Positions 2,191-64,000 of a stretch of DNA of 64,000 nt are shown here, in pieces. The translations under genes and the position numbers were made by a program. The notes beneath the pieces are model-generated. The model made no database searches. It saw nothing but the letters and a program-made list of their open reading frames with translations, and had not been told where the DNA came from. The stretch covers positions 8,590,388 through 8,654,387 of the forward strand of contig JARUPZ010000008.1 in assembly GCA_031213475.1 (NCBI GenBank), written 5' to 3'. Position 1 is the stretch's first letter, and each line of letters starts with the position of its first letter. This DNA is from Nereocystis luetkeana (lineage: Eukaryota; Sar; Phaeophyceae; Laminariales; Laminariaceae).

Positions 2191-2501
2191 TTTTTCCGGT
2201 TTTTGGACGGGACCTCCTTTCGGTCGGGGAGCGGCTGCTTTTGGCAGCTCGCTTTGCTCGCCCGACTTGAGTGGGCAAGTGGGCTGGCCATCAGCTGGGT
2301 TCGCAGTCCGACTTGCCGACTCCAGTCAGTAAGTTGGCTGACAGCGCCTACCGATTAGTTACTACCTGGTAGTCGTAAAATCTTGGTCTGCCGACTAACA
2401 GCTCTGCCCATACACGTTCTCGTAGTGTTCTGTAATTCATCACTTCGTGAGGCTGAGAAACTGAACCCCCGCAATCGCGATTTCCGCTTTTTTTCGCGCA
2501 G

Positions 2502-2626
2502 GAGTCGCTTCTGGCACAAGCCTGTCTTCGACGCGTTGGAGGTGCTGAAGGGCCTGTGCGAGCAGCACGATACCACGCTCGTGTCGGCCTCGTTGCGGTG
2601 GCTGCACCATCACTCTGTCCTGAGCG
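2502..2626 (+). pseudogene. Orphan exon of an AKR7-type aldo/keto reductase
   Basis: The frame from 2503 encodes SRFWHKPVFDALEVLKGLCE followed by QHDTTLVSASLRWLHHHSVL and SG. This matches the stretch RFW..xxFxA....ALRWMxHHSxLxG near the C-terminal third of aflatoxin-aldehyde-reductase-like AKR7 proteins. A pyrimidine tract with CAG ends at 2501, and a GTAAAC donor follows at 2627, so the block has exon boundaries. I find no neighbouring exon: the expected following HGDAV(I/L)(L/I)G segment is not seen, and downstream is a minisatellite. It may be one exon of a gene with very long introns, or a gene fragment carried by a repeat. Confidence 0.6.
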
Positions 2627-2844
2627 GTAAACTTGTGGTGTTGGTGCTCTTGATGCCGCTGAGGCGTGCTTGCTCTGCTCCTAGCTCCTAGGTGTTGTGA
2701 GGCGCCTCACGTGAGGAGCTTTAAGCTCCCCAAACCTGAACGAACTACAAAATCAAGATGAACAATCCCATGGCCTAGAGTGGAAATCTAGAAATACAAC
2801 GAATACAGTTGTAAAACATTAATGGCGTTCCAACGATTTTGGTT

Positions 2845-3645
2845 AGTTCCTCAGTGCCCTTAAGGAGCCTGTTAATAGTCAGAAATATGTTTTATAGTAT
2901 GTATAGCTCCTCAGTGCCCTTAAGGAGCCCCATCAGTGAGAAACATCCCTTATTTTATATCATAGTTCTCGGTGCCCTTAAGGGGCCTACTAATAATCAG
3001 TAATAAACATGCTTCTTCGGGTATCATAGTTCCCCAGGGCCCTTAAGGAGCCCCATCAGTCGGAAATATGCCTTATTGGGCAGTTGCTCAGTGCCCTTAA
3101 GGAGCCTATTAATAGTCAAAAACATGCCTTCTCGGGTATCATAGTTCCCCAGTGCCCTTAAGGAGTCCCATCAGCCAGAACTGTGCCTTATTGGGTAGTT
3201 GCTCAGTGCCCTTAAGGAGCCTACTAGTAATCAGAAACATGCCTTATTGGTTATCATAGTTCCTCAGTGCCCTCAAGGAGCCCCATCAGCCAGAAACATG
3301 TCTTATTGGGTGTATAGTTCCTTATTGCCCTTGAAGGGGCCCCATCGGCCAGAAAAATGCCTTATTGGGTATCATAGTCCCGCAGTGCCCTTAAGGAGCC
3401 TATTGATGGTCAGAAACATGCCTTGTTGGGTATCATAGTCCCTCACTGCCCTCAAAGAGCTCCACCAGTCAGAAACATGCCTTATCGGGTATCACAGTTC
3501 CTCAGTGCCTTAAGGAGGTTCATCAGCCAGAAACATGCCTTATTGGCTATCATAGTTCCTCAGTAGCCCCATCAGTCGTAAACACGCCTTATTGGGTTTC
3601 TAGCTCCTCGGTGCCCTTAAAGAGCCCCCTCAGCGAGAAATGGTT
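2845..3645. repeat. Minisatellite, about 60-bp unit, 13-14 copies
   Basis: The repeating unit reads roughly TTCCTCAGTGCCCTTAAGG, AGCCCCATCAGCCAGAAA, CATGCCTTATTGGGTATCAT, AG. Units differ by point changes, by the alternation of CCCCATCAG with CCTATTAATAG, and by small deletions. The short frame at 3199-3438 only reflects the repeat. Confidence 0.9.
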
Positions 3646-3699: not shown

Positions 3700-4330
3700 A
3701 AGTATACCAGTGTGTGCCTTGGAGGGGCAGGTGATGATGGGGACGCTGTAATCGTGTGCAACATGCCGAAAGATTAATATTTCTCGATACGATATCGTCC
3801 ATACGATAACACACGTGCGTTGTGGGGCAGGTGATGACGGCGACGCTGTGATTTTGTCGACTATATCGAACTGTCGGTATAAGGATATCTTGTTTATTTT
3901 TTTATAGTACGTCTAACTTTCGAGACGATATCCGACCACGATCAAAGATGTCAGGAGACATGTACAAGGCAAACCACGCGCTGTCAAGGGTATAGGGCCG
4001 AGTGTTCCATACTAAGGCCCAGCAGTTTGGTGTCAGTCGAAGCAGGCCAAGGTGAAGTTACTGTCTCTCAAGGGGTGAAATCCTGCCCCCTGACATCTCT
4101 GACATATTTGACCACGATGTCGATACGATGTATCACGTGCAGGGGATGACGGTGATGCTGCAATTGTGATCAATTTATCGACAGCTCGATGTCTCGATAT
4201 TTTTGACAGTCTCAAAACGCTCGACACGGTACTGTATCCTTCAAGGATATTCATACGATGTACCAGGTATCACCTAACCCTAACCTGCACGTTGTGGGGA
4301 AGGTGACGACGGCGACGCTGTGATCGTGTG
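3700..4330. repeat. Degenerate repeats around a GGTGATGACGGCGACGCTGTGAT motif
   Basis: Variants of CAGGTGATGACGGCGACG followed by CTGTGAT occur near 3727, 3829, 4141 and 4299. They are interspersed with CGATATCG/ATACGATGTA blocks at irregular spacing. No coding region is supported. Confidence 0.55.
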
Positions 4331-4739: not shown

Positions 4740-6330
4740 TTGACCAGTCATCCCTTTCGAACCGAAGCACCGTTCCTACTCCTAATGCACCTCCAACATG
4801 TGGGCGCTCATTACGTTGTTTCCATATATTACATAGAGACGTTTTGCTATTTATACGTATCCCCTTCCTGTTTCGCCGCCTGTGGCCGCCATCTATCTCC
4901 TAGGATAGCGATCGGTTTGTCGCTGCTATCTAGTGTACCAAACTCCTCCAGGTCACATTCGTCTATTTCCCTCATCTCCTCTTTCAACACAACCCGTTCC
5001 TCCTTGTACATGTCACATTGTCCTACTATGTGAATTCTAGCCTCGACTGCTTTGCCACACGGGCACATCTGTACATCTACTTCGTCCTCCTGCCCGCTAC
5101 TGGCTGATATACCTCTTTCTTCTTTCTGGCAGGTCCAGGTCACCTACACTAAATCGCAGTTTCAACGTTTTCGCGGAATCCATTGGACCGTTCTCATTCC
5201 TATCCCTCCGCTTCATCCCCTGTATATCTCCCGGTATTCCTCCGACTTCACCTTGTTTCTTAGCGCTAGCGTTTCCTTTCTTTCTATTTTTTTTCTTTTT
5301 TTCTACTTCTATATTGTACCTCTCAGACGTCTCTGCAGACATCAACTCTTCTTTGGTTCCTCCTATCTCCTTCCGTATTTTCCCCTCTACGCTATCCCGC
5401 CTTTTTCCAGCTCGCCCTGTTGCTACTTTCTCCTAGACAGGTCTGGTCTTACCTAATGGTTTTCACATGGTCTACGCGACTACGGTTTGGCGTAAACACT
5501 GCTCGCCCTTCGCCTATTTTGTCTTCCTTCTCCATCATTGTTCCCATTCTGTCGTTCAAAACCTTTTTTCAATGTTCGGCCTACTGTGCTTGATAGCGTT
5601 ATCGCTCTATAGTACCCCAGGTCAGCCTTATGTCCTTTCTCCAACACGTTTACTACTATTACGGGGGACCATAGTTAGTAGGACCAAATATTGTTAGTAA
5701 AAATGGTCAAATATATACCTGGTAGTTTTTTATGTATACCATAGGTCCTATTAAGTATGGTCCCCCGTAATACTCCTTCTCTCCACCCCCTACTAGTAGG
5801 TGCATACTCGTTTTTCCATATCCAGCTATTCAACATAACCGTCATAGTGAGCATTCTTTCTCCCCCGCACCTCATAAATTCGTTCATCGTTTGGTCTGGC
5901 GGTCTTTGTCTTCATATTGTGAAGTCTAGCTACACACTTCTTTACTGCGCTCCTGGGGAACTCTCTGTGTAATCCTCCTGAACCGCTCTCTTCCCTTTCT
6001 GATGTATGTGTCGTTCGTCTCTTCCCTTTCTGATTTCCTTCTCGAATTCTGCGCCGAACGTTTTGCTGGCTGTGGACGTTCCTAGCTTACGGTAATGCTT
6101 TACTATGTACGTTGTACTTCCCTTCTCCCCTTCGAAGTGCTAACGTTTTTATCGTTCCGTGCTCTTGAGGTAGCTCTTCCGGTGTCTGCCTCTCCTGCTT
6201 GTTTGCAATCCTTTTTATACCTACCCACTGCTGCTTGATCCCGCCCGCCAAAGTCTTCATTCGTTCTATTTACCACGTCTTTCCCTTATCCCTTTCTTAT
6301 TCTCTATCATCTCTTTTACGTTCTTGCTAG
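4740..6330 (-). pseudogene. Decayed non-LTR retrotransposon reverse transcriptase
   Basis: Reading the minus strand from high to low coordinates gives four blocks. First, a linker region with NDEFMRCGGERML and WIWKNEYAPTSRGWREG (about 5890-5775). Second, an RT finger block GYYRAITLSSTVG, then, after a frameshift, KIGEGRAVFTPNRSRVDHV (5640-5455). Third, a lysine-rich segment and LKLRFSVGDLDLPERRKRYI (about 5345-5100). Fourth, a C-terminal zinc-binding-like CPC-x8-H-x4-C (about 5070) with ILGDRW and CNIWKQRNERP. The palm that should hold FxDxxKAYD and YADD is absent, so the copy is an internal deletion derivative. A MITE interrupts it at 5659-5770. Coding-like sequence may continue to about 6840. 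The pyrimidine-rich + strand frames here are its shadows. Confidence 0.8.
5659..5770. mobile_element. MITE-1 copy with internal 7-bp insertion
   Basis: TA-flanked element of 112 bp. It differs in length from the 105-bp consensus by CCTGGTA inserted after ATATATA (5716-5724). It is nested in the minus-strand LINE, between the linker and RT finger blocks, so it inserted after the LINE. Confidence 0.92.
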
Positions 6331-7299: not shown

Positions 7300-8049
7300 C
7301 GAGTCTGCGGGCTAGGAAGCGCTTCCGATGGTGGAGCCAAGGCACCGGCGCAGGGTCAGCTCAACCCCGATGTCAAGCCCTTATCCAACCCTGGCCCTGA
7401 TCCCAAACCCCGAACGAAAATGGGCCAGAAACGCGGCTGTGCCGCGACTGTTGAAGAAAGAAGGGAAACTCCGCTGATTGAAGAAAACAATAGTTTTCCG
7501 AGGTACCGTGGAACGCGTTTGAGACAACCTGGCGCGCGGGATAGTGAGTGTTTCGACGAGCGTGTACGTAGTCAGAACACAATCGATAAGATTTGTTTGT
7601 TTTGCTGCCTTTCACAAACGCACGTCGCGTCTTTTTCTACTATCCCACCAACGCACACAAGTGGACGACAGAAAAAAAATCTCCTGCTGCGGGAGTTCCT
7701 AGCGACAGCTCATGGTATATTTCCGAAGCACCGTCGAACCATGATTTGCGACCGCTGAAGGCGTGCTCTTCGGTGCCCCGGGTCAAGGCGAGCATGTCCG
7801 ATCGACTATTTGTCAATGGCTATTTTAGTGTTCAGTGCTACGCACAGCTTACTACCGCTCTTGATGTAAATATGAGGGTCGTTTAAAATACATAGTAATG
7901 ACTAATACTTCCTACCAGGTATGTCCTTATCTTTCCGTCCAGAGTCGTCTAAATGTGTGTGGTGTGTTGGATTCCGTCCGACTTTGGTCTCATTACCTCC
8001 TACTACTAAAGTATTTGATTTGTATGAACATGTATTGTCTGCGTTTTTC
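7300..8049. other. No recognisable feature
   Basis: I see short overlapping frames only, without family resemblance. One TACCAGGTA lies at 7913-7921. Confidence 0.5.
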
Positions 8050-8350: not shown

Positions 8351-8868
8351 ATGATTTTCTGGTTGTCTATGACCCAAACAGCGGGCGAGAGCACATTCCT
8401 CGCTGTCTTGACCAAAACCATACCAATCTGGACGGACATGCGTAAGGACCGTTTGATGTGCATACCAATGCTCAAGCGTTCCATATTGTTTTGGACATGA
8501 CACCGGGGTTCAATTCAGGGATCAACGATTTCGTCTCCCCGAATTCGGAAAATTAATTATTACCTCTAGTTTCAGTACGATTTTATTTAATCACACTTTT
8601 TTTCCCCGGAACATCTAGAACAATACTCTATGACGCATGGCACGGTAGCGGTATCATTCGATATTTTCGACGAGAAACAATGTCTACCCTGGTATTTTGC
8701 GTCCTCCCTAAAAATAATTGTGAGTGAATCTACTCGACTTGTGGACAAATACCCGGCTTTTAGCCGGAGGTCTATACTGCTGTGTACGAAGGATCGACTG
8801 TGGTGAGCTTAGGCTTTACTTTTACCAATCCGTCGGAGCATAAAAATGGAAATAATACAAAGACTGTA

Positions 8869-11130: not shown

Positions 11131-13255
11131 GCCAGCGCAGCCCTAATTAGCTTCCAGCCGATATATCGGTTTTCCGGTATCGGCGCAAGGGTGGGATTTT
11201 TGCTGTCATCTCTAGGTTCAAGCGTTTGCCTTATCATCACTGGCACTGTGTGGGAATGGAATGTCTGTCTGGCTTCAGACCAAACCCTCTCGCGTGTTAT
11301 CGCATCCTTTGCCACCACATCCCATGTTGCTGGTACCACGGCCCTTATTGTCGAACCCCATGCTAGCACACCGTCTGCGTTACATATGCAAGCAGGCCGA
11401 GGTCTGTTAACGTTCCATACAACAATCACCAATACGGTCAGCACACTCCCTCGCCCTCGATAGCACACCCCCCAGTCACAACGCCCCCTCGCTGCGGGCC
11501 CCCCGTGCATGTTGCTTATCACCGGGGATGCGTCAAATATCACACACCTGCACAACAGCGCACACAGCGATAATTCTTTAACAGGTCAAAACGTTATCAC
11601 CGGGTTGTGCTTTTCTCCGTGTTGTACGGTACGACTTTACGTTGCCAGGGTACGTGCAGCGGCTGTTCCATCAGCTGTAATGTAGAAAGATTGATACTGA
11701 CGTCGGAAGAGAAACAGGGGCGGTTGATGTTGGTGCGTCGTTGCAGAAGAGTCATGGATCTTCATTGTGACACAGCAACGGATTCAACACGTAAAATATG
11801 TAGAGAACTAAAACACACGAAGTAACAGCGGTTGGACTTGTCGAGAAAACTAATTGTAGGAAGTTCGCAAACATATGAGTACTCAGTTGCCGTGAGTATC
11901 AAGCAGGATTACGTTTTGGTATAACAATTTGGCTGAGTAACTTGTCGTTTCGATAAACTGTTAAGAATAGCAATCTGGACTTCGTGTTGGTGTAGCCGCT
12001 GTACTACACAGCAGCAGACGTAACGAGTAGCCTATCGAGTCACTGACCAGAAACTATAGGGTAGGAGCTGATACGTGTAATAAACAGCCTATCTGCTCAG
12101 TAGCAGTAACTTGAACTAGGCATACATACGCTCGGCTATGTACACAAGGATGTTGCTTGGTGTTATTTAATACCAGGTAGTTGTTAACATCAGCATTAAG
12201 GGTATATCTTTTCATAACGTACGGGGTAACAAGAAAACCCCAATAATTCATGTTTCCTGGCAATCGATCGTCGGTTGGTTGTCGGGGCAATAGCAATAAT
12301 GTACGTTCACGAGCAAGCATCCAATGAAAGTTGCTGTGGGCCGGTCAGTAGCACAATCCGGTACATCTATCTACTGAAGTCGTATGGTCGAGAGTGGTCA
12401 ATGAATGGTGGTTACATGTTTCCACTCACCGAGCTGACGACCAACCTCCTCTGCTCTGTCTCGTTTTTTCTTTCGCGTTCTTCATCTTGGCTCCAGAGAA
12501 AGCCATCTCTGCAATATCATACCTGGTACTATTCTTCGGAGGAAGTTGACGAGCTAGTCTAACGCCTGCTCGTGCAAATCGTCTGGACTAGCACGCCCAC
12601 CACAATGCCGCAGATGGACTCTCTTCGTTAACAAATACATATCTTCAACAAGCAAACACACGGGAATTTCGAACATAAATCGTCATCAGAAAAGTCATTC
12701 TCAGTAGTTGGGAAAACCGGTGTTTTGATAGTATTTGTATGGGATGTTCCTATCTATGCGTCCTCTTGGGGCCCGTGGCGTGTCCGTGGTGTGTCCGTGG
12801 GCATTGCCTCGCATGGTGTGACCATTAAGACTCACCACAGTAAATAAAAGGACAAATACTGCTGAGTGTGGGTTACCCCGTGGGACAAGTCGAAACAAAT
12901 ACATCGCCTACAGAACAAAGGAAAACATATTTTGAGCTTTAGTTGTCATCGGGAAGGCAATTAATTATCAGTCTGGAAACGCGACTACTGTATGATTCAT
13001 CCCCCCTAACGTATGATATGATTTGTTGCAAAAAATATGATAACGTGATAACGTAAAGATAAAATGCAGCTGTATCTCCCATTGTACAAAACAGAAGGAT
13101 GGGCCAGCAGTTACAGAGGGGGGCAGGCGGGAGGGAACAGGGGGGATGGGATGGGAGGGAAGGAGTTATAGGGCTGGCCCTGCTATTCTAGCGGTCTAAG
13201 GGGGCCCCGATAAATCACCACACCAGGCCTTCAAAATTGTCAATACTGTCGTGTT
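11131..13255. other. No recognisable feature
   Basis: Unstructured sequence on both strands. TACC[A/T]GGTA micro-motifs occur at 12171 and 12520. No exon-like conserved peptides were recognised. Confidence 0.5.
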
Positions 13256-14919: not shown

Positions 14920-15750
14920 TAATTGACTGGTCTCTTTCCTGTATCCTGCTGTCGAGCTCTCCATGATGAGATATACAACTGAAAAACATTCTAAAAAAAA
15001 GCGTGCCCTGGCCAGTATCGACATCCCTGTGGGCCCTCCTCTATATGGCGCACCATGATGTTATAAGGCTCACTGAAGATTGGGTAGGCGTTCGGTTATC
15101 CTTTTTCCAGTAGCCCAACGGACTAAGATCTGACACAGGTACAACGTACTCGCAATAACGAACGAAACACCACTGCAAACCAGTATTATTATTAACTAGT
15201 TACAGCTATATGTGATATGGGGTGGTAGTGGAGTATAGAATGGTCATGGGATAGCCGTAGCATCAAGGCCCTGTTCCCGAGGCCCCGCAGTTTCCTTTGC
15301 AGTACGATGGTTACTGTAGGCGATAGGAAAAGAGTAGACGAGCGCGGGCCCGAGAAAATTTCCTCGGACAAGTAAGTGTCTTTACCCGTCTGGCGGATAA
15401 ATAGAAGGAGATTAGAGTGGGCTTGGTTTGATGTCTTGAATCATTCCGTTACCGCGATACTCGGGTACTACAACATACCTGGTACATATTACAGTTGTTA
15501 GGGCATCTGTATACGATACCTACCCACCCAACCATACCCACCCAGTCACCATGAACGGTTCCTGCGCTGATGCTTATCGCTTAGCAGCGAATACGATCCA
15601 TAGACTGTTTCTGTTACACAGAGTACGACGAGTGTAAGATGAATCAACATCCGATATTTACAGTATATATAGCTCTGCAGGTAGTAGTTTAACAACTTCA
15701 ACGCGCCTGTCACGCTTCATTGTTGTCCTTTTTCACGACGTCCCGTGGCA
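14920..15750. other. No recognisable feature
   Basis: No coding or repeat match was seen apart from TACCTGGTA at 15476-15484. Confidence 0.5.
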
Positions 15751-18318: not shown

Positions 18319-18978
18319 AATCTCCAACCCTCGCAAATGTAGGCTTTCGTGCGAGAGGTATTGGGTGGCGTGCAGCAGCTCGAGCGATGCGCTTCCCTCG
18401 CCTCGTCGATTCGGACGAGTATCGAGTTGTTGCATGTGCAATTGATTTCCTGTTAATTTCACGCGTTAAAATAAAATAGGGCTGCCTGGCATCAGACACC
18501 ACCTGATGCACGGTGTGGGTCTGTGTGCTCTCCAAACTAAACACCTATTTCTACCTCCAGGATACCCAGTGTTCAAGCCTCATCCTTGGCAGACTCTTTC
18601 GCGTGGCAGGAAGGTCAAGTAGTAGTAGAACGAAAGTTTATGCGGTGATGCGCATCGCTCATGGAAACCCCGTTACTTTGTGTGAATACGACAAACGCGA
18701 CACAGCCAGTATACAGCCCACTGTGAGGGAGAAAATCATGTTGAGTGCACGGCAGTGCTGGCTTCTTCGCCCGCTGAACTGTCGCACTGTCGCCCTCTGC
18801 CTAAAATTGTTTCTTTTCGTCCTCATAAAGCCCCCCGTGAGCAACGCAGTTTTCTCCATGGCGTAAGCTGTACCTACCTGGTATGGTGCAAGCTGTGTCT
18901 CTATAGAGTACATAGTGTAAGTACGACACATTTGACTTGTATGACAACCCATCCTAGTACCCTCGCACTATTATACTT

Positions 18979-19095
18979 TTACGGCGGACAATAGTAAATA
19001 CCTGGTAGGACCAAATGTTGTAGGTATAAAACGGTAAATAGATATGGTAGGTTTTTGTGTGCACCGTAGGTCCTATTTACTATGGTCCCCCGTAA
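18979..19095. mobile_element. MITE-1 copy carrying a 7-bp micro-insertion
   Basis: The expected AATAGGACC reads AATA-CCTGGTA-GGACC (18999-19007). The right end is canonical, and the left end is TTACGGCGGACA. The element lies 36 bp upstream of the LTR element's target duplication. Confidence 0.87.
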
Positions 19096-19135
19096 TACAA
19101 GCTACTAGTTACTACTGTATAGCTCCAGCGACAGC

Positions 19136-19575: not shown

Positions 19576-21287
19576 GTGATAGAGGATAGCACTTACTGGT
19601 GGAAGGGCTTCTGTGGTGGTATGGCGCAAAGGGAGGAGCTGCTTGGTATGGAGGCGCAGCAGGAGCGGCAGTATGGAGGCCGAGGGCAGCAACAACCTCG
19701 GCCTCAGCAGCAGCACCTTGGTGGGCAACAGCAGCAACGCTGGGGTGGAGGCCAGGGTTATCAGCAGCATCATCGGCGGCAGTATGGAGGCCGAGGGCAG
19801 CAACAGCCTCAGCCTCAACGGCAGCAACGCTGGGGTGAAGGCCAGAGTTATCATCATCATCAGCAGCAGCAGCAACGGCGGCAGCCACATGCTGCTTCGG
19901 AGTGGTGCACTGGGGCGGCTGGTAACACCGATCGCGTGTGGTATCAGCCTGAGTCCCCTCCGCCTGCAGCAGCGTCGATTTACGGATCCTGCGCACGGTG
20001 TGGCGCCCGAGGGCATAGGGATGTGATTTGCCGTGCACCCAACAGTGTGTGCGACGACTTCATCTTTCATGGTCGCATGGCCAGGCAGTGTATCACTGCC
20101 CAGCCTGCTGTCGTCTACGCGCCGAACTACTACAGTACGCTGCAGGCTGGAACGCCGGCGCCCTAGCAGCCACGGGTGGAGCCGGCAGCGACGAGCTCGG
20201 CAACGAGCTACTCAACCGATGTGGTGTAGAGTTGCCGCCGCGAGCCTCCACCAAACGAGCTCTGTGATGCCGAAGAGCCGCGTGTAACGTCTGTGCTGCA
20301 GCAGGATTACCCTGAGGTCGTGGACCTTGGTATTGCGCTTTGCCCGACGTGATGGATCTCGGTGATGCTAAGCCTGAGGAGGTGGAGCTTGTTGCTGCTT
20401 TGCCCGACATGGTGGAGCTCTCTGAGGCTAAGCCCGAGGTGGAGCTTGGTGTTGCCGTGTCCGAGGTGGTGGAGCTTGGTCTTGCTTTGTCCGAAGTGCT
20501 GGAGCTCGGTGATGCTGAGCCTGAGGTCGTGAAGCTTGGTGTTACTGTGTCCGAGGTGGTGGGCCTTGGATATGCTGAGGCTGTGGTCGTGAAGCTTGGT
20601 CTTGCTGTATCCGAGGTGGGGCTTGGTGTTGCTGTCGCTGTGTCCGAGGTGGTGGGCCTTGGTGATGCTGAGCCTGAGGTCGTGAAGCTTGGTGTTACTG
20701 TGTCGGAAGTGCTGGAGCTCGGTGATGCTGAGCCTGAGGTCGTGAAGCTTGGTGTTACTGTGTCCGAGGTGGTGGGCCTTGGTGATGCTGAGCCTGAGGT
20801 CGTGAAGCTTGGTCTTACTGTGTCGGAAGTGCTGGAGCTCGGTGATGCTGAGCCTGAGGTCGTGAAGCTTGGTGTTACTGTGTCCGAGGTGGTGGGCCTT
20901 GGTTATGCTGAGCCTGAGGTGGTGGAGCTTGGTGTTGCTGCGTCCGACGTGCGCAACTCCGGTCAGAAGGGGGGGTCAACGTACCCCTTCGACCGGGGAA
21001 AACTCATATGGGCGAGGCTGGCACCGAGTGGCTGGGAATACGGATCTGGCTCGGTTTGGGGAGGGTATGGTGGCGGATGGGGAGACGGGGATTACGAGGA
21101 GGCGGGGACTAGCAGCGGCAGCAGCAGCGGCAAGCGAGATTTCCCGTTCGACCCTGGGAAACAGGCATGTAATATTTTTCCGGTGTCGCTCACTTTAGTT
21201 TTGGTGCACTGGATCTTTTTTGTTTGTCGTTTTTTGTTTGTTCTTTTCTGTGCTTTCGTTGTGTTTGCCTGGTATGTTCTCAAATGA
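19576..21287 (+). pseudogene. Gag-like gene, broken: Q-rich region, zinc knuckle, acidic 20-residue repeats
   Basis: The first part (19576-20166, 196 aa) has Gln/Gly-rich repeats with QYGGRGQQQP twice, then a CX2CX4HX4C zinc knuckle, CARCGARGHRDVIC. A degenerate second knuckle follows (VCDDFIFHGRMARQC, lacking the second Cys and the His). TAG stops at 20164 and 20227 interrupt the same frame. A frameshift near 20335 joins it to the 315-aa frame at 20340-21287. That frame is built of about ten 20-residue units of the type EVVGLGDAEPEVVKLGVTVS and then two PFDxGK motifs (YPFDRGK and FPFDPGK). Its position directly after the 5' LTR, plus the knuckle, suggests Gag. The function of the acidic repeats is unknown. 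Confidence 0.7.
20300..20945 (+). repeat. 60-bp coding minisatellite inside the Gag-like gene
   Basis: About 10-11 units of a 60-bp sequence, alternating GAGGTGGTGGGCCTTGGTGA and GAAGTGCTGGAGCTCGGTGA starts with GCTGAGCCTGAGGTCGTGAA. The length is a multiple of three and the frame is kept across all units, which argues for selection on the protein while the array expanded. Confidence 0.85.
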
Positions 21288-21952
21288 AGTGTGCAATATT
21301 GCGGAAGGTGTGGACTACCTGGTACCTGGTATGTCTTTTATGACAGAAGCATTTCCACCGCAGCTGCTGTCTACGTACCCGTATATTAACCAGAGGGTAT
21401 GAGGGAACCGTACCACGTCTGCTACCTGATTCCATACTGCTGTGTCTACCCAGGCCGCGAGTTGGCAAAACGGACGTACCTGCGTGGCCAATTACCCACT
21501 TGAATATGAGGAAGACCAACTATGAATAGAAATCGGTACTGACGTTGTCTTGTCACCATTGTTTTGAGTGAAATCATGAGGGGGGGTTTGATGGCATGAT
21601 TCTACTCGTAGACATAGTGCATAATGATGTGACTCGTTATCTAACGAGTAACCTCGGTTTCTGGCACGAACTGGCTTGATTTCTGACGCTGGCCCACCTG
21701 ATACTGCCCACTGCACCCTGCGGCTTTGCGAGAGATGTAGTCCATGTCGCGGCAACATGGAGCCGCGGCAGAAGACAAGTGTCGCATCCGTATTGTAGGG
21801 AGCAGGAGACGGAGGTTGAGAGGTGGGGTTGTGGGGGATTTGGACGTGATTTTGTTTCTTTCTATTTCATGGTTGAGGTATTTTGGAGTCGTAATGACAT
21901 CGCAACTTTTTTATGATGAGTGTTTTGTCGTCTACCGTGCAGGGGGGGCATG

Positions 21953-25065: not shown

Positions 25066-25682
25066 TACCTGGTACCTGGTAGTAGTTTGGCAGGTAGGTG
25101 TTAATACAACAGCCTATAAATATGATAGAATGCTTCGCAGAACAAAACAAGTTTCACATACGGCTTCCCCTTGGTGATACGATCATGTAAACACTTCTAT
25201 TATAGTGTCGAATGATCCGACGTATTGGCCGATTTTTGGCCTAGAAAACACGAATTTACGAATTTATATAAGAAGAAAGGCAGTTTATATGTTTAAATCC
25301 ATACCAGTGGTACGCAACAACGCCTCCGCCAGTACTACGAACAATGTCCATATCTCGCAAACTACATCTTCCCCACGCCAAAAATCTCCTCAGTGATGCG
25401 TTCCCCTTGTTCATGCGGGTATGCGGATATCTTCAGTGTTGAATAAAACGATGTATTCCGGTTTGTATTGCCCGAAGGTGGAGTTTGATGTGTGTCTTAG
25501 GAACCTGCTCGTTTTTCATTATATTTTTATCATGCTTGCTGTCCGACAATGTTGTATTGGTTGATAGAGTGTTGTTCTAAAAAAATATTGTAACAACTAT
25601 ATATAGCTAGCTGCTGTACCTGTAGCTTTTGTTTCCTGCAGACTATAAGCACGTCTGACGAACGTGTGTCGGCCTGTTGAGG

Positions 25683-26853: not shown

Positions 26854-27068
26854 TTCCGTTGTCTGCCGTAGTATTACTACTGCGTACAGGTTGAATAGGA
26901 TATTTCTCGACCCTGACCTTAACTATTGTTTACAGTAGGATTGAGAGTTGGTCCCACCATTTAGTCGTACCGTTCCCTTACGATTGATATATGATAGTGC
27001 CGTGCGCACTTGTTGTTGTTGTTGTTGTTCTCACATTAAGTCTCTGACGAAGGAGTCCGTGGTCACGC

Positions 27069-28850: not shown

Positions 28851-28899
28851 TCGTACCAGGTACTCTTCTTCTTTCGTTTTCTCCCATCGAGACGTACAC

Positions 28900-29250
28900 T
28901 TTTTTTTTTTTTTTTTCCTCATCCCATTTATTATCCTCGCCCATCTTCTTCTCTCTCTCCTTCCAACTCGTAACTCAGATCCGGGGTCACACAGCAGGCT
29001 CTTCTCCCCCCTTCCCCCCACGGTACGTGCCTTCGTTTTTATCGCGAAAATATATCTGCCTTTTTTTCCCTCGTCGACTCGCATCGAATTGTGCCTCGTA
29101 CCCACGCTGCATGGCGCTCTCAACAATTGAATCCTTTTTACTTTTATTTTTGCAAATAAAGTCAAATGTCCAACCCACCTGGGGCTCGAACCCAGGACTC
29201 AAACACAAGAGAAATTCGAGGTCAACCACTTGAACCACCGGGGCGACCGA
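28900..29250 (-). mobile_element. SINE-1 copy
   Basis: Full-length minus-strand copy, from the poly-T at 28900 to GGTCGCCCCGGTGG at about 29250. It contains a GGTTCGAGCCC-equivalent B-box. It sits between the two inverted LINE 3' ends. Confidence 0.87.
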
Positions 29251-38470: not shown

Positions 38471-38674
38471 CCTGTAACCGTAAGCAGGGTAGGCGGTTCC
38501 CAGTCGTCGCCGTATGGGTACGACAGGCATGTACTCGTACAGCAGCCGTTGTTGTTCAATTACGAGTATAGTATAAATTGACTTCTAATAATGGAGTCTG
38601 AGGGAGCATTTCATATATATACCAGGTATAATAGACTTCGGATATATTCTCACTTTGTCATGACGTTCACGTAT

Positions 38675-46130: not shown

Positions 46131-47110
46131 TTTTTCTCACGTACTGAGCTTCGAAAGCCGCTCGAGGGGTGTGTTGTCTTGTGTGCTCATACGGTAAACC
46201 TCACCCTACACCCCGAACCAAAACCACGACAATTCCCACACCGGTCCACACAACAAGGGCATGGAAATTACCGCGGTTGACATTATTGGTGTCTGATGAC
46301 GGGTAGAAATAATGAAGTAATAATGACAGTAGGTTTAATCTGGAGACACACACAGACTGCTGCACTACCGCGGTGCGTTTACGTGTACGACGTATGTACG
46401 TACGTACGTCACCGGATGTGGACCAAACGCGTCGAAACTCTTCTTTCATGTGGCCAAAGAGATGGTCTATTAATAGCTGGGCTTGGAGAAAGTTCTCCGA
46501 ATCTTGTCTGGTTGAAAATCAACACTGAGTGCGTGCGAAGCGTCTGGCATTGTTTCGGACCTCGGGTATATCAATAGTATGCTTGGTACCCGCGTTCGCT
46601 CCCCAAGACATACATCATACTCGTATGACGCCTGTGTTTTTTCGTCTTCACATTATTATTAGATCGTCCTTTTCACTCACAACTTCATCAGTATGCTCGT
46701 ACTCGCACCACTTTATCTGTCCGTCCTGATTATTTATGGATATCCCAGAGATGTACTACCTGGTACCACGTATTAATATTGGTGGGATCACAGACTGTGC
46801 TGTGAGATAGAGAAAGCCCAAAAGCAAACAAAACATAAAATAGTAAATTCGTGGACGAAGCATGAAACGCCTGCATCGTACCGGGTACGAGATCACAACC
46901 ACACGAGCATCGACACTTCGTCCTTAAAACAACGAGATAACGCCTCGACCAAACATATCGAACACAACAATCTAAGATACGGGCGGTACAGAGATGCGAG
47001 CGGCAAAACCCTCTTCCGTATGTCTGACGGGGTCTCAAGTTTGATACCTCATTGTAGAGATATGAAGAGGAACCATATGGCTTCTGAGGAGACGACTAAC
47101 CCTGACCTTG
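46131..47110. other. No recognisable feature
   Basis: TATTAATA at 46468 and 46771 and TACCTGGTA at 46757 are the only notable motifs. Confidence 0.5.
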
Positions 47111-48260: not shown

Positions 48261-48267
48261 TACAGTA

Positions 48268-48379
48268 CTACGGGGAACCATAGTTAATAGGACCTATAGT
48301 ATACATAAAAACCTACCAGGTATATATTTAACCATTTTTACTAACAATATCTCTTCCTATTAACTATGGTCCCCCGTAA
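48268..48379. mobile_element. MITE-1 copy with internal 7-bp insertion
   Basis: TA-flanked element of 112 bp. The interior reads AAAACCTA-CCAGGTA-TATATT (48314-48322) where the copy at 8869 reads AAAACCTATATATT. Confidence 0.9.
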
Positions 48380-48463
48380 TAGTAAATTTTTCAAGTGATC
48401 ACTTTTACTTTCCAACCGAAACCGTACGAGGTACCCTCATCAATTCTGGACAGGCCGTGGTCA

Positions 48464-48635: not shown

Positions 48636-49109
48636 TACCAGGTACGGCAAGCAGTATACCAGGTAGTCCATGTACTCGGTGAGACTCAAGCCCACAAAAA
48701 AAATGGTCTTGATGGGCACGCGGGTCACCTTGCGAGCCACCGTGGGCGATGCTTGGAACTACAGTAGTAGTCGGATACATTCGTAGTTCATTAAACTCTG
48801 CAGCTTCGTATTTCGTCTTCCTCAAATACGGACTACTGCTGCTGTCTTCCCTGCATGAGGCCCCGTACAGCAATACGTAGTACGCGTGATCGATTGATAA
48901 CACACAGCAGTTTGCATATAAGTACCTGGTACCTGGTATGAGCTACGACCAAATCCTCTCGATCTCGCTGCTGGTCTTTGTTATTTTGTACCAGGTACTT
49001 CGTTATTCAGTGTTATATGTCTACAGACGCAAAGCCAATACAATCAGGGGTAAATACGCGAGGTATATTGATTGTTTTTCGGAAGATACCACATACCTGG
49101 TACCTGGTA
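48636..49109. repeat. Densest cluster of TACC[A/T]GGTA micro-motifs (7 in 475 bp)
   Basis: Copies lie at 48636, 48657, 48923, 48930, 48989, 49094 and 49101. The 48923/48930 and 49094/49101 pairs overlap by the shared TA, which would arise if a second event used the TA made by the first. Confidence 0.9.
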
Positions 49110-49324: not shown

Positions 49325-52300
49325 TACAGGCATTGGCCATGGTCCTTCATTCAACGATGTAATATCGCATACAACAAGGCCAACCAAAGGTCGAAAAAGA
49401 GGTACCACCCCCTGCACGTCGCCACCGCAGACAGACATGGATGGTGTGAGTCTGCCGAAACCTTGGCCGTATTCATACCAGCATGGAGAGCCAGGGGGGG
49501 ATGCACGACAATTCTTGCGTGCCCACCCCCGGGACAGAACCGGTTGGAAGACCCTGAGATCTGCGTGTGCGAACCTGCAGAAAGAAGGTGATTGCCGCAG
49601 GACTGCATGCGTACTTCGAAGCGTACCTTGCCGAAACCGAACGACTCCAAGCGAACAACGACCAGAGAGGCTTTTACAAGCACCTTTAGAGTACGGTAGG
49701 ATTGGAAGGGACTAAAGCGACGAGCGAACAGTTCATGAGGGACGAGGATGGCACGCTCTTACTGGATAAGGTGCGAATTCATGAACGATGGGCGGGGTTT
49801 TACCACAAACTCTTGAACACGAAGTCGCTGAAACTCGATCCCACGATTATCGACCTCTTGCCACCGCGACCGCCTAAACTGTCGCTTGAAGATGAACCAT
49901 CCATAGACGAGATGACAGAAGATGTCGAATTGGAAAGCTGTCTGGCCAGATAGTCTCCCGGTCGAACTCCTAAAAATCGATCACCCGGCATTCGCCCAGT
50001 GATTTCACAATATCCTTGTCAATGTTTGGTTAACAGGAGAAGTCCCTCAGCAATGGAAAGATGCGATCATCAAGGTCCTTCACAAAAAGAAGGATCGAAG
50101 TGACTGCAACAACTACAGAGGGATTTCGCTTGTTGCCCACGCAGGCAAAGTGCTGTTGAAAATCGTCGCGTCACGCCTCAGCAACTACTGCGAGACCGAG
50201 GAACTACTCCCTGAGGAACAGCGCGGCTTCCGCCCCGCACGATCAACGATTGATATGTTGTTCGTCGTGCGCCGGCTGCAAGAGCTCGGACGACAGAGGA
50301 AAATCCCTTTATACGTGTGCTTCATCGATCTGCAGAAAGAGTACGACTCTGTCGACCGAGAGCTGTTATGGAAGGTACTCACACGCTTTGGCGTACCAAC
50401 TAAGATGCTGAGAATTATCCGTAATTTCCACGATGGCATGCGGGCTCGCGTGCGTATTGATGACGGCGAGCACTCGGAATGGTTTGATGTCACGCAGGGG
50501 CTGCGGCAAGGCTGTGTACTATCACCGTTACTGTTCAACGTGTTCTTCGCTGCTGCGTTACATGTCGTACTAGTACGCTTCAGCCAAGACGAAGCCATTG
50601 TAAGGGATTTGGTCCAACTCAGTGAAGCTGGAGTAGTTCGAACAGGGAAGGAGGAGCCATTGGCGTGCGCGAGAAGGTCTGTATAGGGCATGATGTGTCT
50701 TCGAAGCAGCAGGCCTCACGGTGTCGGAAAAGAAGACAGGGACAATGGTCCTACAAACACCAGACCAGACAACCCTCGCACCACCGCTCGTCATCGAAGC
50801 GGCAGGCCATAGGTATAAGCAGACGACCCAGTTCTTATACCTAGGCGGCGTTATCCACGAAAACGCTGCGCTCTCGCTCGAAATCGACCGACGGATCCGC
50901 CTCATGCGAGCATGCCTCAAACGGTTCGGCCCGGAGTTGTATGATAGGACGACCGCCCCCCTTAGCCTTAAAGTCCGAATGCTGAAGGCCGAGGTGATTG
51001 AGACCCTGCTGTACGGGTGTGTGACGTGGACCCTCAGAGCGGAACACTTCGCCAAGCTTCGAACGGCTCACCACCAAGTCCTGTTGCGAGTCATTGGCTT
51101 CCAGCGCCGACTTCGTACTGACCATGCCACCCTCTCGTACGCGAAGGCCCTCAAGATGACACGTTGCGAGAGCATCGAAATGCCCATTTGTGAACGGCGG
51201 CTCTTCTTTGCGGGGGGCGTGGCACGGCAAAGCAAGGAGCGATTACCCAGTCGGGTGATGTTCGAGACGATAGCTGGTGGGGAGAACCTGAAACCAGGCG
51301 GACAGTGTAAGAGTTGGCATAGATGCATAGTCGAAGACCTTAGGGAGTTCCGAGCTACCGAAGGGTCAACAGAAGCTGCCCCCTTGGTGTTTGGAGTTGA
51401 GACTGCGTTGTGGTCCACTGCAGCCAAAAAGGCGGGGAAGTAGTACCGGGGGATCCTTGAAGCAGCCGAACGGTTCATGGTGAGGTGGCACGAGGCTGAG
51501 GCTGAGATGAGTAGGCAGCGCCGCGCATCCGTCGTGGATGGTGTCCAAGGGAACGGGGGTGCAGGAGGCAACAGGAGAAGTGGCAGAAAGCCCGACCAAG
51601 GGAATGCGGAGAGGGGGGGGGGCAGGAGGGGTAGAAGGGAAACGGCGGGAGACGAAAGTAGGAAGGAGATGGTAGACAGGGTAGCAAGGCACCAAGTCGC
51701 CTAGGAAGTAGAACATGGTCATTACTACTAGTGCTACCAACTGGTGCAGCTGGTTCGAACGTGGTCTTCCCTTGTCTTCTCTTTATGTTTTTTTTTTCTT
51801 TCTTGCGCTGACTCTCCGTGATTTTCATTGTTTTTTTTTTTCTCTTCCTTTTCTGATTGATAAGCCGTACTGAAGGAGCCGTGTGGCGTGGTTGGATGAC
51901 GAACCTGCTCTACTCGTTTCGTATTGTCTGACGCCAAGGGGCTGGGCATAGTTGACGAACGCAGGGCGGAGACGGCAGTCTGGGTAGCAAGGTACCAGGC
52001 GGATTAGCAGGGAGAACCTGGCTATACTACTCGTACCACAAACTGCTGCCGCCACCTGGAAGGTGCTTTGGGCTTTGGTCTGCCTGTTATTTCCCCTTTG
52101 TTATTTTTCCTTGGTTCTTTGTCTTACTCTGTTTACAAGCAGTGGTGTTTTTTTTTCTTCTTCTTTTTTCCAGCTCGTTCTTTTTCAAGTGTTGGCCACC
52201 TCGCCTGCGGGGGGGGGGCACGACAGATAGTTTTTCCTAGTTTTTCCTTTCATTTTTTTTATTTTTCTCTTTCGATTTGTCTACTCTGTTTTTTTCTTCT

Positions 52301-53095: not shown

Positions 53096-53275
53096 ATGGA
53101 TTGGCTTCAGTCCTAGAAGGGTTACGCTCTGTAATTTTCTCCCCAAATCCTGATTCGAAGAAACACCATACCTGGTATATATAGGCGATAGGTGCCCGAC
53201 GACCAATCCCGAATATGTCGAGTTATTTCGCGGGCCCATAGTTGCCAGAACCCATCAGCTACTACTGCACGCAAA

Positions 53276-53346
53276 CATCCTACCAGGTATATATTACGGT
53301 ATTTTTACCGAGCATATTTGGTCCTGATTGCTGTGTTTCCCCCGTC
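53276..53346. mobile_element. Truncated MITE-1 with CCAGGTA at the same position as 48314
   Basis: CCTACCAGGTATATATTACG is followed by ATTTTTACCGAGCATATTTG and TTTCCCCCGT. Sharing the insertion site with the 48.3-kb copy suggests either a subfamily derived from an inserted copy or a preferred TA. Confidence 0.7.
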
Positions 53347-56700: not shown

Positions 56701-59700
56701 TTCGACCCCCACGACGACAGCGACTTCTTGACCATCCACGACAACACCGTCTACAACAACGGGTACCACGGCATAATCGCCTCCAAGCGCTGCAACGGGG
56801 TTTCCATCCAGGTAGGTTCCGCTTGGGCTCCCTTCGGTTTACACCCGCAGGGCGGCCGTACGCAGCGTTATTTGCTCGGTGTTCATATCTTCAAACCATG
56901 GGAGGACTTTGTGCTTGCAACAATTTCTCCCTGGGGTGCTATGGGCGTCTCAGACGGACACGAAGTGAAAATGACAGCTCTGTACTGGTGCTCGTTCGAC
57001 CGGGCTTGATGTCGGTATTTCAAGGGACGCCGGTTGGGACGCCGGTTTAACGTCACACATTCATCAAGACCCCTGGACCGATTCCCCCCCTCCCCTATCC
57101 GTCTGCAAGAAAGTCAAGCAGTTCTTAGTAGGACATAGCTCACCCATTCATGCGGCTAGCCCAACACCTCACGTTTCGCTCCGCGCTTGATGCATACAAT
57201 TTCTGCCTCGTCGGTGGAAACTCTACGTGCCCCGTCCCGGCATTTGAAGGAGTGCGACGGTACGACCACGGTAATGCATGATGTCGAGTACCAGCTCTCC
57301 CCCCCCCGCCTATTCTTTATAGCCACTGCCTTTTGTTCTTCAACCGACTCTCAGGGAAACGAGGTCTATGGCGGTGATACTGCCGGCATATTCCTTCACC
57401 GAAGCAGTGACGACGCCACAGTAAGAGGTGAGAAGTCGTGATCGCACGAGGCAGCCCGCCTGGAAGATGTCAAAGTCACAGGTGGTGGGGGCGTACCACG
57501 AGGTAGCACGAAATCGTTCAATATATTTCCAACGCTACACGGTTGCTCGTCGTATGTATTGGTCGACCGTTTGTCAGCCAGGCTGTTGCGCGCTTTATCG
57601 GCAGACGTTGTAGAGGTATGTCGAAATTGGCCCACATCATGAGTTGTTCGTGGAGGGATGGAGATGTATCATATTATGGCGGACCCTAGTGGACAGGGAC
57701 ACGAAGTTTTGGTAAATATAGGCAAACATGTAGATTTGTGTGTGTGTGCCGTGGGCCCTATTTACTATGGTCCCCCGTAATAATATATATGCTTGTAGGA
57801 ACTTCGTGCAGCAGTATATTTTGTACATAACTGTGTTCAAGTTGTAGTCATTTGTTGTGAATGGCGGGGTAATTGTTGATGTTGATATATAATCGCTATA
57901 TTGCATACCAGGTACCAGTAAACACGCTGTACCAACGTATAACGAGGGATTTTATTCAATACAGAAGTAAAAGAGTTTTATTTACCACTACAAAAACAAA
58001 CGTGTTTTACATCATGGGACAGAGTTGTGCGTGGCCGCAAGACACACGAGAAGGAAAAACAAAGAAGAGGAAGCATTCATATCCTCGATCCAGAACTCCG
58101 GTGCACGTTGTCATTACGGGATAGCGCGTGACTACCACTGTCTTGAGCGTCAGCATGCGGGGGGCAAGGGAAGGACAACCCACATCAAACTGTGTTGGAC
58201 TCCTCACGAAACTGACTAAAAACGAACAAATTCGCAATAATATAGCACCATACCTGGAAGCACGTGCACCATTTTATGTACCATCAATGTTTGTAGTTTT
58301 ATTCTATTCCCTGGCACATGGTACACAACACAGACCACAGCAACAGAAAGTAGCCAGTCCTTCATCGCTTTCCCGGAGCTCTCTCTAGAACGTAAAGCAG
58401 GAGCTGGAGATGCAACGTGAAAACCTGCCCGAAGATCGTGAGCTACGAGGATGCAACGGTGTTGTCCTTGGGGTTTGACTTGGATGCACGCAATCGAGGG
58501 GAGGGGGGCGGGAAGGAGGAGGGAGGGAACACCACAACTACGAGTGTTTTTTTTTTTTCATGTTTGGCAGATTCGTTTCCCGGACAACTTCAAGCGGGCG
58601 CAGTCAGGCTCTCCGCGGCCTCTCCTGCGGACGCTGGACGAGGGCCCTCCCTCACACACCAGAACAGACACGGCGCTTGTACCCGGCCGAATTGGAAACG
58701 CGGCGGCCGAAGGAGAAACGTGACCCACACAACATCACAGCAGCGGCCCACCCTTCAAAATATTTATAATGCTCCAAGAAACGTCAAGTTGCGCCGTGTG
58801 AAAAAAGGCACCGTAAAATCAAGTCTAAGAATGCTCGAAAAATTGAAAAATTAGAAGCTCTCATTCGCTAGTAGTATCAGTGCCAAGATTTCAACAACCA
58901 CGGTGTTCAGCATGAGGCTCACACGAGGTGCACCTCGGGCCACGTAGTGGGCCACTCTTCCCCGCGAACGCTACGGGCCTGCCCGATCGCCTGCCCTTGG
59001 AATGTCAGGCACCCAAGATCGTCAAACCTCCTCGGGGAGGCTAAACTTGCTTGTTGAAGCCGCATGTTTCGATTTCACTTATGCGCGATGTCTCAAGTAT
59101 ATGCCGGTGTGTTTTTTATCTCCTCGGAACCTTACTCGATAGCACGAAACTATCGCTCCCGTACCAGGTAACTACGTCCACGACAACGGCGACGCTGGGA
59201 TGGCGATGCTCGAGTCCTTCGGGGCTGACGTGTCGAACAACAAGTTCGAGGACAACAGGTACGGCGTCAGGCTCTCCGTGGGATGCGGCAACAACGTCTT
59301 CTCCAACAACGTCATCAGCCGCTCTACCGAGTGAGAAACGTTTCCTGCCAGGTTTTTGCATGTAGGCCATGGCGATCCGTCTCTCCATCCTTCTGTCTGT
59401 GGAGGGGACAAACTAGGTTTCCCCCAGCCCATTTGATCTCCTGACATCTTTGATATGGCCTGGGCACATTTAATATCGAGGGGATGTTATCCACCCCATA
59501 TCTCCGGGTTTGCCGTTGACTCCAATATCTAGACATGTTTTCAGGCCATCTTGTTGCAGCCGCTCGTTCGACACGCTGCTGTTGGGGGGCTGGCTCGTGC
59601 CTTAGCATCGCGGGTACCTACCTCATCCTAGTGTTCGTCTACAGCAGAGGCGTTCTACGATAGAGGTTCACCCTATTTTTTCTCAGGCCCCTCACTTGAG

Positions 59701-61322: not shown

Positions 61323-64000
61323 CCCAAGCAGCGAGTTCGTCAACTGTTAGTTTAGCCCACCCTCTACCCCATGTTCCTTGTTTCGACGAGAGCTTCTCTC
61401 CGGTTTGCATATTTTGGGGATTTGCCCGGCACACAGGGATTTGTTTTTGGGAATTCCGAACGTGACTACGAGTAAAGACGATGGGTTTCGGGCTTGATTG
61501 GTGTCGGAGTACCGGCGTCCGTGACCGAAGCACGCGCGCCGCCCGATTTGTCCCCCGATCGCCATTGCGATACGAAGTATTAGCTCTACCGCCTGTTACT
61601 GTAGAGGGCCACCCGACGACGAGGGTTTTGGGCAGACGTTCAGCGCCTGTGCCCTAGATAAGTGAGTATGCAGTACTGCTCACTCACCAAAGAGCGTACA
61701 GCACATATCATGCTCATGACGCTTGTTTCTGCTTGCAGGCGTTACTGTTTCAACTGGTGGCACGCATAGATATCATACCGTTGGGGGGGGCTCTCGCGTA
61801 TACGTCTGTACGAGTAAAATAACGGGTATTGTCCGGGATCGAGCCCTCGAATACGATATCCACGGAGGGTCAAATGCGTTACGCCAGGCTATAATTTTAC
61901 TGTAGCAGTACCTCACGTGGACACATTGGTTGCTGTCGTGAGACTCCCCAAGGAGAGCGTTCGGCAGGGCGAACCGGTTTTGGGTGGTCTAAACCCCCAA
62001 GCCCTTTATTTCAAGACCACGTGGGAACGAGTACTAGGTGGTGTGCTGTAGTTACAAAGAAGTGTTCACAATTTGAATAATTTTGCTCTTGGTTTATCGA
62101 GGAAGACCTGGCGAAGATCCAGCGATGGGAGGCGCCCCTAGAGGGCGAATTGTAGTTTTTTGTCACCTGGAAACGCAACGATGGGAGGCGCCCCTAGAGG
62201 GTGATTTTTATTTTTTTTTGTCACCCGGAAACACGCACCTAGTGTACAGCTTTTGTTCGCGTGCTGCTGTGATAGATACGCTTACCCCCGTGGGGTTGGC
62301 GAGGTGCTTGAAGCGTGTGACAATACAAGAAGACCGCAAGGGAAGGCACGAACTTTTCAACGTAGTAAAAGCGTTGTTCTCGGTAGCGTACATGTATCGT
62401 GATGGAAAGTACATTCAGGACGTTGTACGACAGCGCCAGGTGTGGGATAAACCCACAGATATAGTTGCACCGCCGGGAACTTCGGCGCCGGTCGTGTTCA
62501 TGGTGTAACCGTATCGCACGACGGTGTAAACCTCACAGCCCGGTGACAATATTCGGGTTAGCTCCGAAACCAGTTATCACCCGGTGTGTCATACTCCGCG
62601 GGTGTGACAGCGTACCCCGGTGATGAAGTAAGTGTATACTTCGGAAATTGATTTGGCGTATCACTACTTTTTTGGGGGGGGGGGGTGATAGCAGTAGTTG
62701 TAAAGGAGCTGGTGGCCACACTCGAGGCTGGAAGAAGTGTGATGGTACTTGATGCCTGGGAGGTTTCGCTGCCGCTTTCGGCAAAGACGGGCAGGAGGTG
62801 TAGCGCCAGTGGTTGTGGTTTGGGTTTGCCAAACTGTACTTTTGTTGTGGCAGCCACTCAGCAGCAGATGCAGTCAGTGCCTGGGGCGTCGACGTAGCTA
62901 TGCCGTGGCGGGCGTTTGTCAACAGCAGGAGGTACACTTGGGTGTGGTTTGCCGCAAAAAAAAACACGTGGTCGAGCCTTGAGTGGCCGTAGCGGCAGTC
63001 ACTTGCTCCCCACGGCTTTGGGCCATGGGTTTGTACGGCCAGGCAGCTCCCCTACAAACATTTTCCTGGTCTCCATACCATGCTGTGGTACGCTCGCACA
63101 CACGTACGTGTGGGTACGACGTTCTTGCTCGCGTGCGAGATATCACCCAGAGGTGATGTCTAGGAGGTGCCATACTGATCATGAGGCATGACACCGCATG
63201 GGGAGTGGTACAACGTGCGCCGGTGATCTATCAAGTACCGGTACCAGGGATGTAGTTCAGGGATTTTTGTTCAACACCCGTGTAGTGTACTTCGGGGGTG
63301 AGGTATACAACATAAAGGGTTTTATCTACACTGCCGTTAAAGTACTGTAATATGTACCAGGTATGCTGTGAGTTTCGCACCTGGGGGGAGGAATCATTAG
63401 CGTTCGTCCCGGGCGGATCGATGCTGAGTCCTGCTGCGCGGCAAGGAGCTCACTATCACAGGTCTTTCTGTGTTGTACGTATATCGAAATCCGTTGTCAT
63501 CGTCGTTTTCTGGATTGTGGGGGAGAGAAATTCCACCCATCGGTCAGACACCTGTGCTGCAGCTTCCTGCAATCTTAGAGTATCTCGACCACCCCCATTT
63601 TGCCGTATCTCTCTCTACCTTCTGTAACGTCGACCGGGTTCTAACTATTGTCGTACGGTGTACAGTTATCTTCGGACGATCAAGCTCCGGATGGTGCGGT
63701 ACCATTCGACTACTCCGAATTAACTCGAGCGAAAACCAAGTTTGAAAATAAAAGTTATTCCGAACCCCCGGCTACTTGTGCCCCCCCCCCCCCCCCCGCC
63801 CCATAAAAAAAAACAAAGTGGGCTGGGTGGGGCGGCAGAAAAAGGCACAAACCACTGAGTTGGATGACCAACCCAGTGACTACCTTTTGTCTACTCAACC
63901 TCGCAACATGCGCTTGGCTGCGACCGACATGGTAATGCTGACTTGGAAGTGATGTCTTTTGTAGAGGGGACGGCGTGCGGGGCCGTCACATTGTAACCTC
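61323..64000. other. Downstream of the epimerase: no gene recognised
   Basis: Contents are a tandem duplication of about 57 bp (62120-62237; GATGGGAGGCGCCCCTAGAG twice), a G-run at 62671-62683, one TACCAGGTA at 63355, and a C-run at about 63781-63797. Frames such as 62083-62508 have no family resemblance. No polyadenylation signal could be assigned to the epimerase with confidence. Confidence 0.5.

Follow-up and report, generated by a model that had tools for sequence, protein, structure and literature searches.

We report that a 9-bp motif, TACC[A/T]GGTA (TACCWGGTA), occurs in large excess in a 64,000-nucleotide stretch of the genome of the brown alga Nereocystis luetkeana (GenBank assembly GCA_031213475.1, contig JARUPZ010000008.1, positions 8,590,388 to 8,654,387 of the forward strand; hereafter the window) and throughout the assembly, and that, a few chance occurrences aside, its copies are probably excision scars left by a TA-targeting cut-and-paste transposon. 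The window contains 37 exact copies, namely the 36 listed in an earlier note made from the sequence alone, all of which proved exact, and one at 4261 that the note had overlooked. The centre base is T in 19 copies and A in 18, and since the two forms are reverse complements of each other they were treated as one motif. Counted as events they number 33, including four tandem pairs with a common TA. When the window was modelled by Markov chains (40 simulations per order), the mean numbers of copies were 0.3, 0.5, 0.85, 1.2 and 6.3 for orders 1–5, so that the excess over chance described in the note was confirmed.

The excess was also seen in the whole assembly (465,085,209 bases in 1,987 contigs), where TACCWGGTA was found at 182,395 places, far above the 1,744 for the reversed pattern, and the tandem form at 15,917 places versus 2 for the reversed control. 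In a 264-kb sample, consisting of the window and 20 stretches of 10 kb, 88 canonical motifs were observed versus 2.57 expected under an order-3 model, and the 20 stretches alone held 51 motifs in 200 kb (about 0.26 per kb). Since the density is 0.58 per kb in the window versus 0.39 in the assembly, the window is richer in the motif than average by either comparison. Taken together, about 166,000 events lie on about 26.7 million TAs, a total extrapolated from the TA density of the window, corresponding to 0.62% of TAs. Among the matches listed in one open-access literature library, we found no report of a TACCWGGTA scar, and by title none of the listed matches to the motif strings dealt with mobile elements.

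The polarity of the change was evaluated in MITE-1, a family of miniature inverted-repeat transposable elements (MITEs) of about 105 bp with ends TTACGGGGGACCATAG, many copies of which lie in the window between 816 and 59973. Sister copies were searched in 276 kb containing 92 events, four loci of which (L001–L004) had been selected for their tandem motif, and 28 near-full MITE-1 copies could be aligned. Five of the 28 carry the scar, one near the left end and four at one inner TA, and since the other 23 are without the motif, the empty state is ancestral, by which loss of an ancestral motif through deletion was ruled out. The centres of the four scars at the inner TA are T, T, A and A, so this TA was hit at least twice; it is a hot target in MITE-1. 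Three scarred copies (ends approximate) lie in the window, at 5657–5774 on the plus strand with TACCTGGTA at 5716–5724, at 18979–19098 on the plus strand with TACCTGGTA at 18999–19007, and at 48266–48381 on the minus strand with a scar at 48314–48322; the scars at 5716 and 48314 occupy the same TA of MITE-1, and that at 18999 a different one. All three have empty sisters that are 7 bp shorter with TA at the site (for the first copy, at 1332 with 95% and at 59860 with 93%), the empty sites having one TA and the scarred sites two. The earlier note had claimed clean empty sites for these three and for 36304; the claim holds for the three MITE-1 scars, whereas 36304 is a weaker case, in which the duplicated copy at 41522 has CA instead of TA at the site and a further 3-bp gap nearby. 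At 28854, the inverted-repeat sister near 29,700 has small gaps and does not provide a clean empty site. The MITE-1 alignment supports the view that TACCWGGTA arose by insertion of 7 bp at a TA and not by deletion; both this insertion and the reuse of the newly made TA, as the note had proposed, are borne out by the MITE-1 sisters and the genome-wide tandem pairs.

By collapsing the scars, a palindromic target consensus of about WANNANR-TA-YNTNNTW was obtained, with T or A at position 7, A at both 6 and 3, and a purine at 1 before the TA, and the mirrored preferences after it. A matrix of these preferences separated scars from other TAs with a leave-one-out area under the curve of 0.87 (75 events with tandems removed, versus 3,000 sampled other TAs), and GC content within 50 bp was 0.43 around scars versus 0.47 around all TAs. 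Such a symmetric flank signature is to be expected from an integrase complex that is itself symmetric. A second TA was present exactly 7 bp off in 29 of 88 cases on each side versus 6.0 expected (tandem pairs included). Because two TAs 7 bp apart match the target preference, a scar is its own good target, and the TAs within a scar have a matrix score 5 times that of the average TA. The preference for TAs 7 bp apart explains, at least in part, the scar pairs with a common TA.

In addition to the canonical motif, a minor form with an additional G on one side, TACCAGGGTA, was found genome-wide at 5,725 + 5,697 = 11,422 places (control: 195 + 214 = 409), whereas its mirror TACCTGGGTA was found at only 780 + 798 = 1,578 (control: 185 + 177 = 362). 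The corresponding counts in the 264-kb sample were 11 and 0. After TACCAGGGTA had first been noticed in this sample, the end-joining model described below led us to predict that the mirror would be rare, and both pairs of counts agreed with this. Run slippage as the source of TACCAGGGTA was ruled out by this 7:1 asymmetry, because a slipped C or G run would yield TACCAGGGTA and TACCTGGGTA equally. For the 11 minor-form sites, flank score percentiles among TA sites averaged 0.79 (range 0.26 to 0.999); three of them lie in the window on the minus strand, at 8685–8694, 33152–33161 and 33812–33821 (percentiles 0.832, 0.999 and 0.965, respectively). At 19 places with G after TACCAGG, which were preselected for G after CCAGG so that no rate is derivable, TACCAGGGGTA was found in 7 (two of them being one duplicate), TACCAGGGGGTA in 1 and neither in 11. 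The series CCAGG, CCAGGG, CCAGGGG and CCAGGGGG suggests that the donor end, read inwards from the TA, is 5'-CCAGG or perhaps CCAGGGG, by which the element ends beginning with CC that had been put forward earlier are narrowed to a probable 5'-CCAGG. The palindromic target and the one-sided G variants are new evidence that supports transposon excision against plain micro-insertion. Separately, seven TACCAGGGTA at exact 528-bp spacing were noticed on C1 (1305185–1308362), probably marking a satellite with a scar of the minor form in its repeat unit.

From the observed insertion polarity in MITE-1, TA site, palindromic target, tandem reuse and one-sided G variants, we infer an element, its ends and its stagger as follows. 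The transposon would insert at a TA within the palindromic target (about WANNANR-TA-YNTNNTW) with duplication of the TA, and, when it leaves, repair of the break would keep five nucleotides of the transposon end, flanked by the two TAs, giving TA-CCAGG-TA on one strand and TA-CCTGG-TA on the other. The ends would be 5'-CCAGG (perhaps CCAGGGG), with the non-transferred strand cut about 5 nt inside. Two ways of joining would fit equally: either both 3' overhangs anneal, with CC/GG pairs around an A:A mismatch that is resolved to A or T, in which case annealing slipped by one would give CCAGGG, or the overhang of one end is kept, the cut lying 5 to 8 nt into an end that begins CCAGGGG. Cuts or slips of 6, 7 and 8 nt would then produce CCAGGG, CCAGGGG and CCAGGGGG, respectively, and a fresh scar with two TAs 7 bp apart could be hit again, resulting in tandem pairs. 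If the copies are indeed excision scars, one genome would hold about 170,000 records of former transposon positions, from which target choice, post-excision end joining and excision rate could be measured on a large scale in a natural genome, and excision would be an added source of 7-bp, frame-shifting insertions.

Decay of the motif was also observed. In 264 kb there were 88 one-mismatch relatives where 59 were expected, while intact copies exceeded expectation by about 85, and the flanks of 41 core variants were more scar-like than those of the average TA (mean percentile 0.75). About one decayed per three intact copies suggests, as a rough estimate, a few per cent mean divergence under steady activity. 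Moreover, two diverged duplicated stretches, L004 and L007, have three scars in common, one of them a tandem, all intact at 84–93% flank identity. Because of the decayed relatives and the scars common to diverged duplications, the scars look old and inherited.

In Tc1/mariner transposition, cleavage takes place at the TA for the 3' ends and a few bases within the element for the 5' ends, so that 3' overhangs are left on the flanks; for mariner-like elements, a passage of PMC2642840 gives two or three nucleotides. Like the footprints of this superfamily (Sleeping Beauty, Mos1 and ZB), the sites described here have TA on both sides of a scar that apparently consists of transposon-terminal bases, and both the TA insertion with TA duplication (in MITE-1) and the palindromic AT-rich target around TA expected of Tc1/mariner were found; unlike in those systems, scars are very many and no element was found here. 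PIF/Harbinger elements make 3-bp target duplications of ANT or TNA, whereas the duplicated unit here is TA and the flanking base varies; piggyBac uses TTAA and is excised precisely and without a scar, whereas here a TA target carries a 5-bp scar. The palindromic AT-rich target is like those of ZB, Sleeping Beauty (SB) and Bari, the ZB palindrome being given as ATATATAT in a passage of PMC7913693, whereas fixed positions extend to 7 bp on each side here and ZB has the ATATATAT core. According to a primer in PMC2642840, the 5' end of Mos1 begins TA-CCAGGTGTACAAG, i.e. TA-CCAGG, a likeness of five bases only. In Ectocarpus, 17 Mariner-Tc1 families with almost 12,000 copies and diverse cut-and-paste PIF/Harbinger elements are described, and the TcMar-1, TcMar-2 and TcMar-N1 families and MITEs show that such elements live in brown algae; in the main text of that paper the words 'footprint' and 'excision' do not occur (PMC12477816). 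The process thus appears to work like Tc1/mariner excision, and we do not claim membership of the superfamily: of the Tc1/mariner-like excision proposed in the earlier note, the TA-targeting excision scar is supported and the Tc1/mariner label is not established.

Several results weigh against transposon excision. The main scar is 5 bp (the minor forms 6 bp and longer), whereas scars of 2–4 bp are stated for Tc1/mariner in a passage of PMC7913693. When the 7 bp were collapsed at each of the 92 events and the sequence aligned to sisters (at most two rows shown per event), an alignable sister was found for 24. For 11 of these, at least one sister showed no gap around the collapsed site, which favours excision; for the other 13, no sister supported a gap-free empty site. 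The gap-free rows shown had TA at the site in most cases and CA in some, and both rows shown for an event in L020 near 830 had CA. Contrary to a simple expectation of clustering at 7 bp, gap lengths in repeat alignments showed no peak there (14 distinct contexts at 7 bp versus 77 at 6 bp and 13 at 8 bp, those with simple repeats dropped), and the motif accounts for 6 of the 14. The tandem pairs are also too many: if all TAs were equal, 2,077 adjacent pairs would be expected when each pair is counted from both members, or by our own arithmetic about 1,040 when each is counted once by arrival order, so that the 15,917 pairs observed surpass expectation 8- to 15-fold, which is more than the 5-fold effect of the target. 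Regional hot spots may contribute to this excess. Furthermore, same-orientation pairs were in excess (40 of 59, p 0.004, the 59 being forward places among the matches listed, all within 2.9 Mb of the start of contig 1, with two triples counted twice), which suggests that some pairs arose by another process such as 7-bp duplication. In the same 59 pairs, the A-then-T order was seen 14 times versus 5 for T-then-A.

Limited searches found neither the terminal-inverted-repeat element nor the transposase that the earlier note had envisaged, which also counts against excision. TA-flanked inverted CCAGG..CCTGG ends up to 6 kb apart gave no element in the 276 kb with its 92 scars; the scan, in which the first six bases had to be exact with up to 3 mismatches in 16, gave 91 pairs, and those starting with C or with up to 2 mismatches were inspected. 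Two CCAGG pairs were rejected, CCAGGCGG in a large inverted repeat and two facing scars in L009, neither being an element. Likewise, TACCWGG and CCWGGTA that are not closed by TA showed no repeated transposon-like inner sequence in the window and sample; CCAGGCGG, seen at three unclosed ends, was always in repeated copies (near 28266, 30226 and 51993), and what looked like an end, CCAGTGTAAA, proved to be a tandem array within the single locus L016. Within the preferred target, element ends searched genome-wide as TANNANRTACCAGGVS, with the continuation picked so as to avoid scars and decayed scars, numbered 325 + 332 = 657 versus 286 + 298 = 584 for the reversed control, and at a level so near the control there are no abundant filled sites with that continuation. 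Two candidate loci, L044 and L047, share TACCAGGGGTGTAC, but neither has a partner end within about 3.2 kb; both may be longer scars that have decayed. By our own Poisson arithmetic, the genome would contain at most roughly 5,000 elements, if these are shorter than 6 kb and have such ends. A search of the assembly with PF01359 gave no match (3 passed the first look) and was uninformative, as it detected 0 of 14 control genomes; PF13358 gave no match (30 passed the first look) and detected 3 of 14 control genomes; and the catalytic stretch of Sleeping Beauty, the one Tc1-type protein used beside these two Pfam models, gave no match (2 passed the first look). These blanks are weak negatives in view of the first-look counts and the control genomes, and introns or divergence could hide a transposase.

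The very many copies and the failure to find an element would be expected if a transposase or integrase acted on TAs with no resident element, by abortive cutting and joining of a fixed short end or oligonucleotide, so that the 7-bp unit itself is inserted; the palindromic target and the TA duplication, too, need only an integrase. We consider this explanation unlikely, because a fixed insert alone leaves unexplained the one-sided CCAGG(G)n series, which resembles the outcome of variable cutting or slipped joining at a real end, and we know of no process that inserts a fixed 7-bp unit without an element. Excision of a real element would itself have unusual properties here, and it is unlikely that all of them apply: an unusually long (5-nt) stagger, about 0.6% of TAs hit, scars far outnumbering resident elements or no element resident at all, and scars that seed further scars. 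In the boldest form of this idea, an enzyme would add the 7-bp unit and no element would ever have been resident, which would amount to a new type of insertion mutation.

A process like the removal of internal eliminated sequences (IESs), in which long TA-bounded germline elements are removed in the sequenced tissue and a 7-bp residue is left, would also give very many TA-bounded excision events, as in Paramecium, where a domesticated transposase excises IESs from the somatic nucleus at every sexual cycle, a single TA remaining without a scar. Ciliate excision is thus precise, whereas a scar is retained here, and the decayed relatives (88 versus 59) and the scars common to L004 and L007 look old and inherited; together with the fact that no split of germline and soma is known to us in brown algae, this makes such an origin highly improbable. 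We regard it as very unlikely that TACCWGGTA is a dispersed functional or ancestral motif, such as a protein-binding site, a satellite unit or part of a repeat family: it is a near-palindrome, as are many binding sites, and one position is common to four MITE-1 copies, whereas it is absent from 23 of 28 MITE-1 copies, several other repeats have sisters that are 7 bp shorter there, and its flanks are a target signature and not a conserved context. Least credible of all is an assembly or library artefact, which the extreme number of identical short inserts might bring to mind; scars are common to duplicated stretches at 84–93% identity and have decayed relatives, and the target preference reaches 7 bp on each side, none of which fits a library step.

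The remaining copies in the window, for which no strand was assigned, are all exact matches. Single scars of the form TACCTGGTA lie at 2363–2371, 12520–12528, 15476–15484, 18875–18883, 30749–30757, 36304–36312, 37568–37576, 46757–46765 and 53169–53177. Those of the form TACCAGGTA lie at 4261–4269 (the overlooked copy), 7913–7921, 12171–12179, 28854–28862, 31266–31274, 33196–33204, 35985–35993, 36047–36055, 36108–36116, 38620–38628, 48636–48644, 48657–48665, 48989–48997, 53281–53289 (with a weak MITE-like sister at 8904 and a 1-bp gap nearby), 57906–57914 (followed by CCAGTA), 59162–59170 and 63355–63363. The tandem pairs are TACCTGGTACCTGGTA at 21316–21331 and 25066–25081, and two others at 48923–48938 and 49094–49109.

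Rfam and tRNA scans of the window gave nothing. Nine stretches from virus contigs, each with one tandem place and 2–3 motifs, were judged to be at chance level, and scans of the virus contigs for MITE ends and reverse transcriptase gave nothing. Among the other repeats in the window is a non-long-terminal-repeat retrotransposon in two copies, at 50003–51443, with a reverse transcriptase domain (PF00078), and at 27048–27971, a frame that matches the downstream part of the first copy over 300 nt at 97%. The reverse transcriptase frame at 50003–50683 had 2,514 protein matches, the best 120 of which included two from Ectocarpus and one from a Chloroflexota bin, most being unnamed. A large inverted repeat at 28038–30454 has arms of 523 nt (97%) and 268 nt (99%), 0.8–1.4 kb apart, and a second MITE-like family (D15) of about 92 bp with GGACCGCGGTCC-type ends is present at 31573, 38675, 47114 and 60786. 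An open frame at 20316–21287, for which no Pfam match was obtained, consists of 30-bp repeats encoding VSEVVELGDAEPE-like units and is accompanied by long frames on the opposite strand. Finally, a degenerate tandem array at 2839–3626, with periods near 57–60 and 115 bp, contains GTGCCCTTAAGGAGCC.

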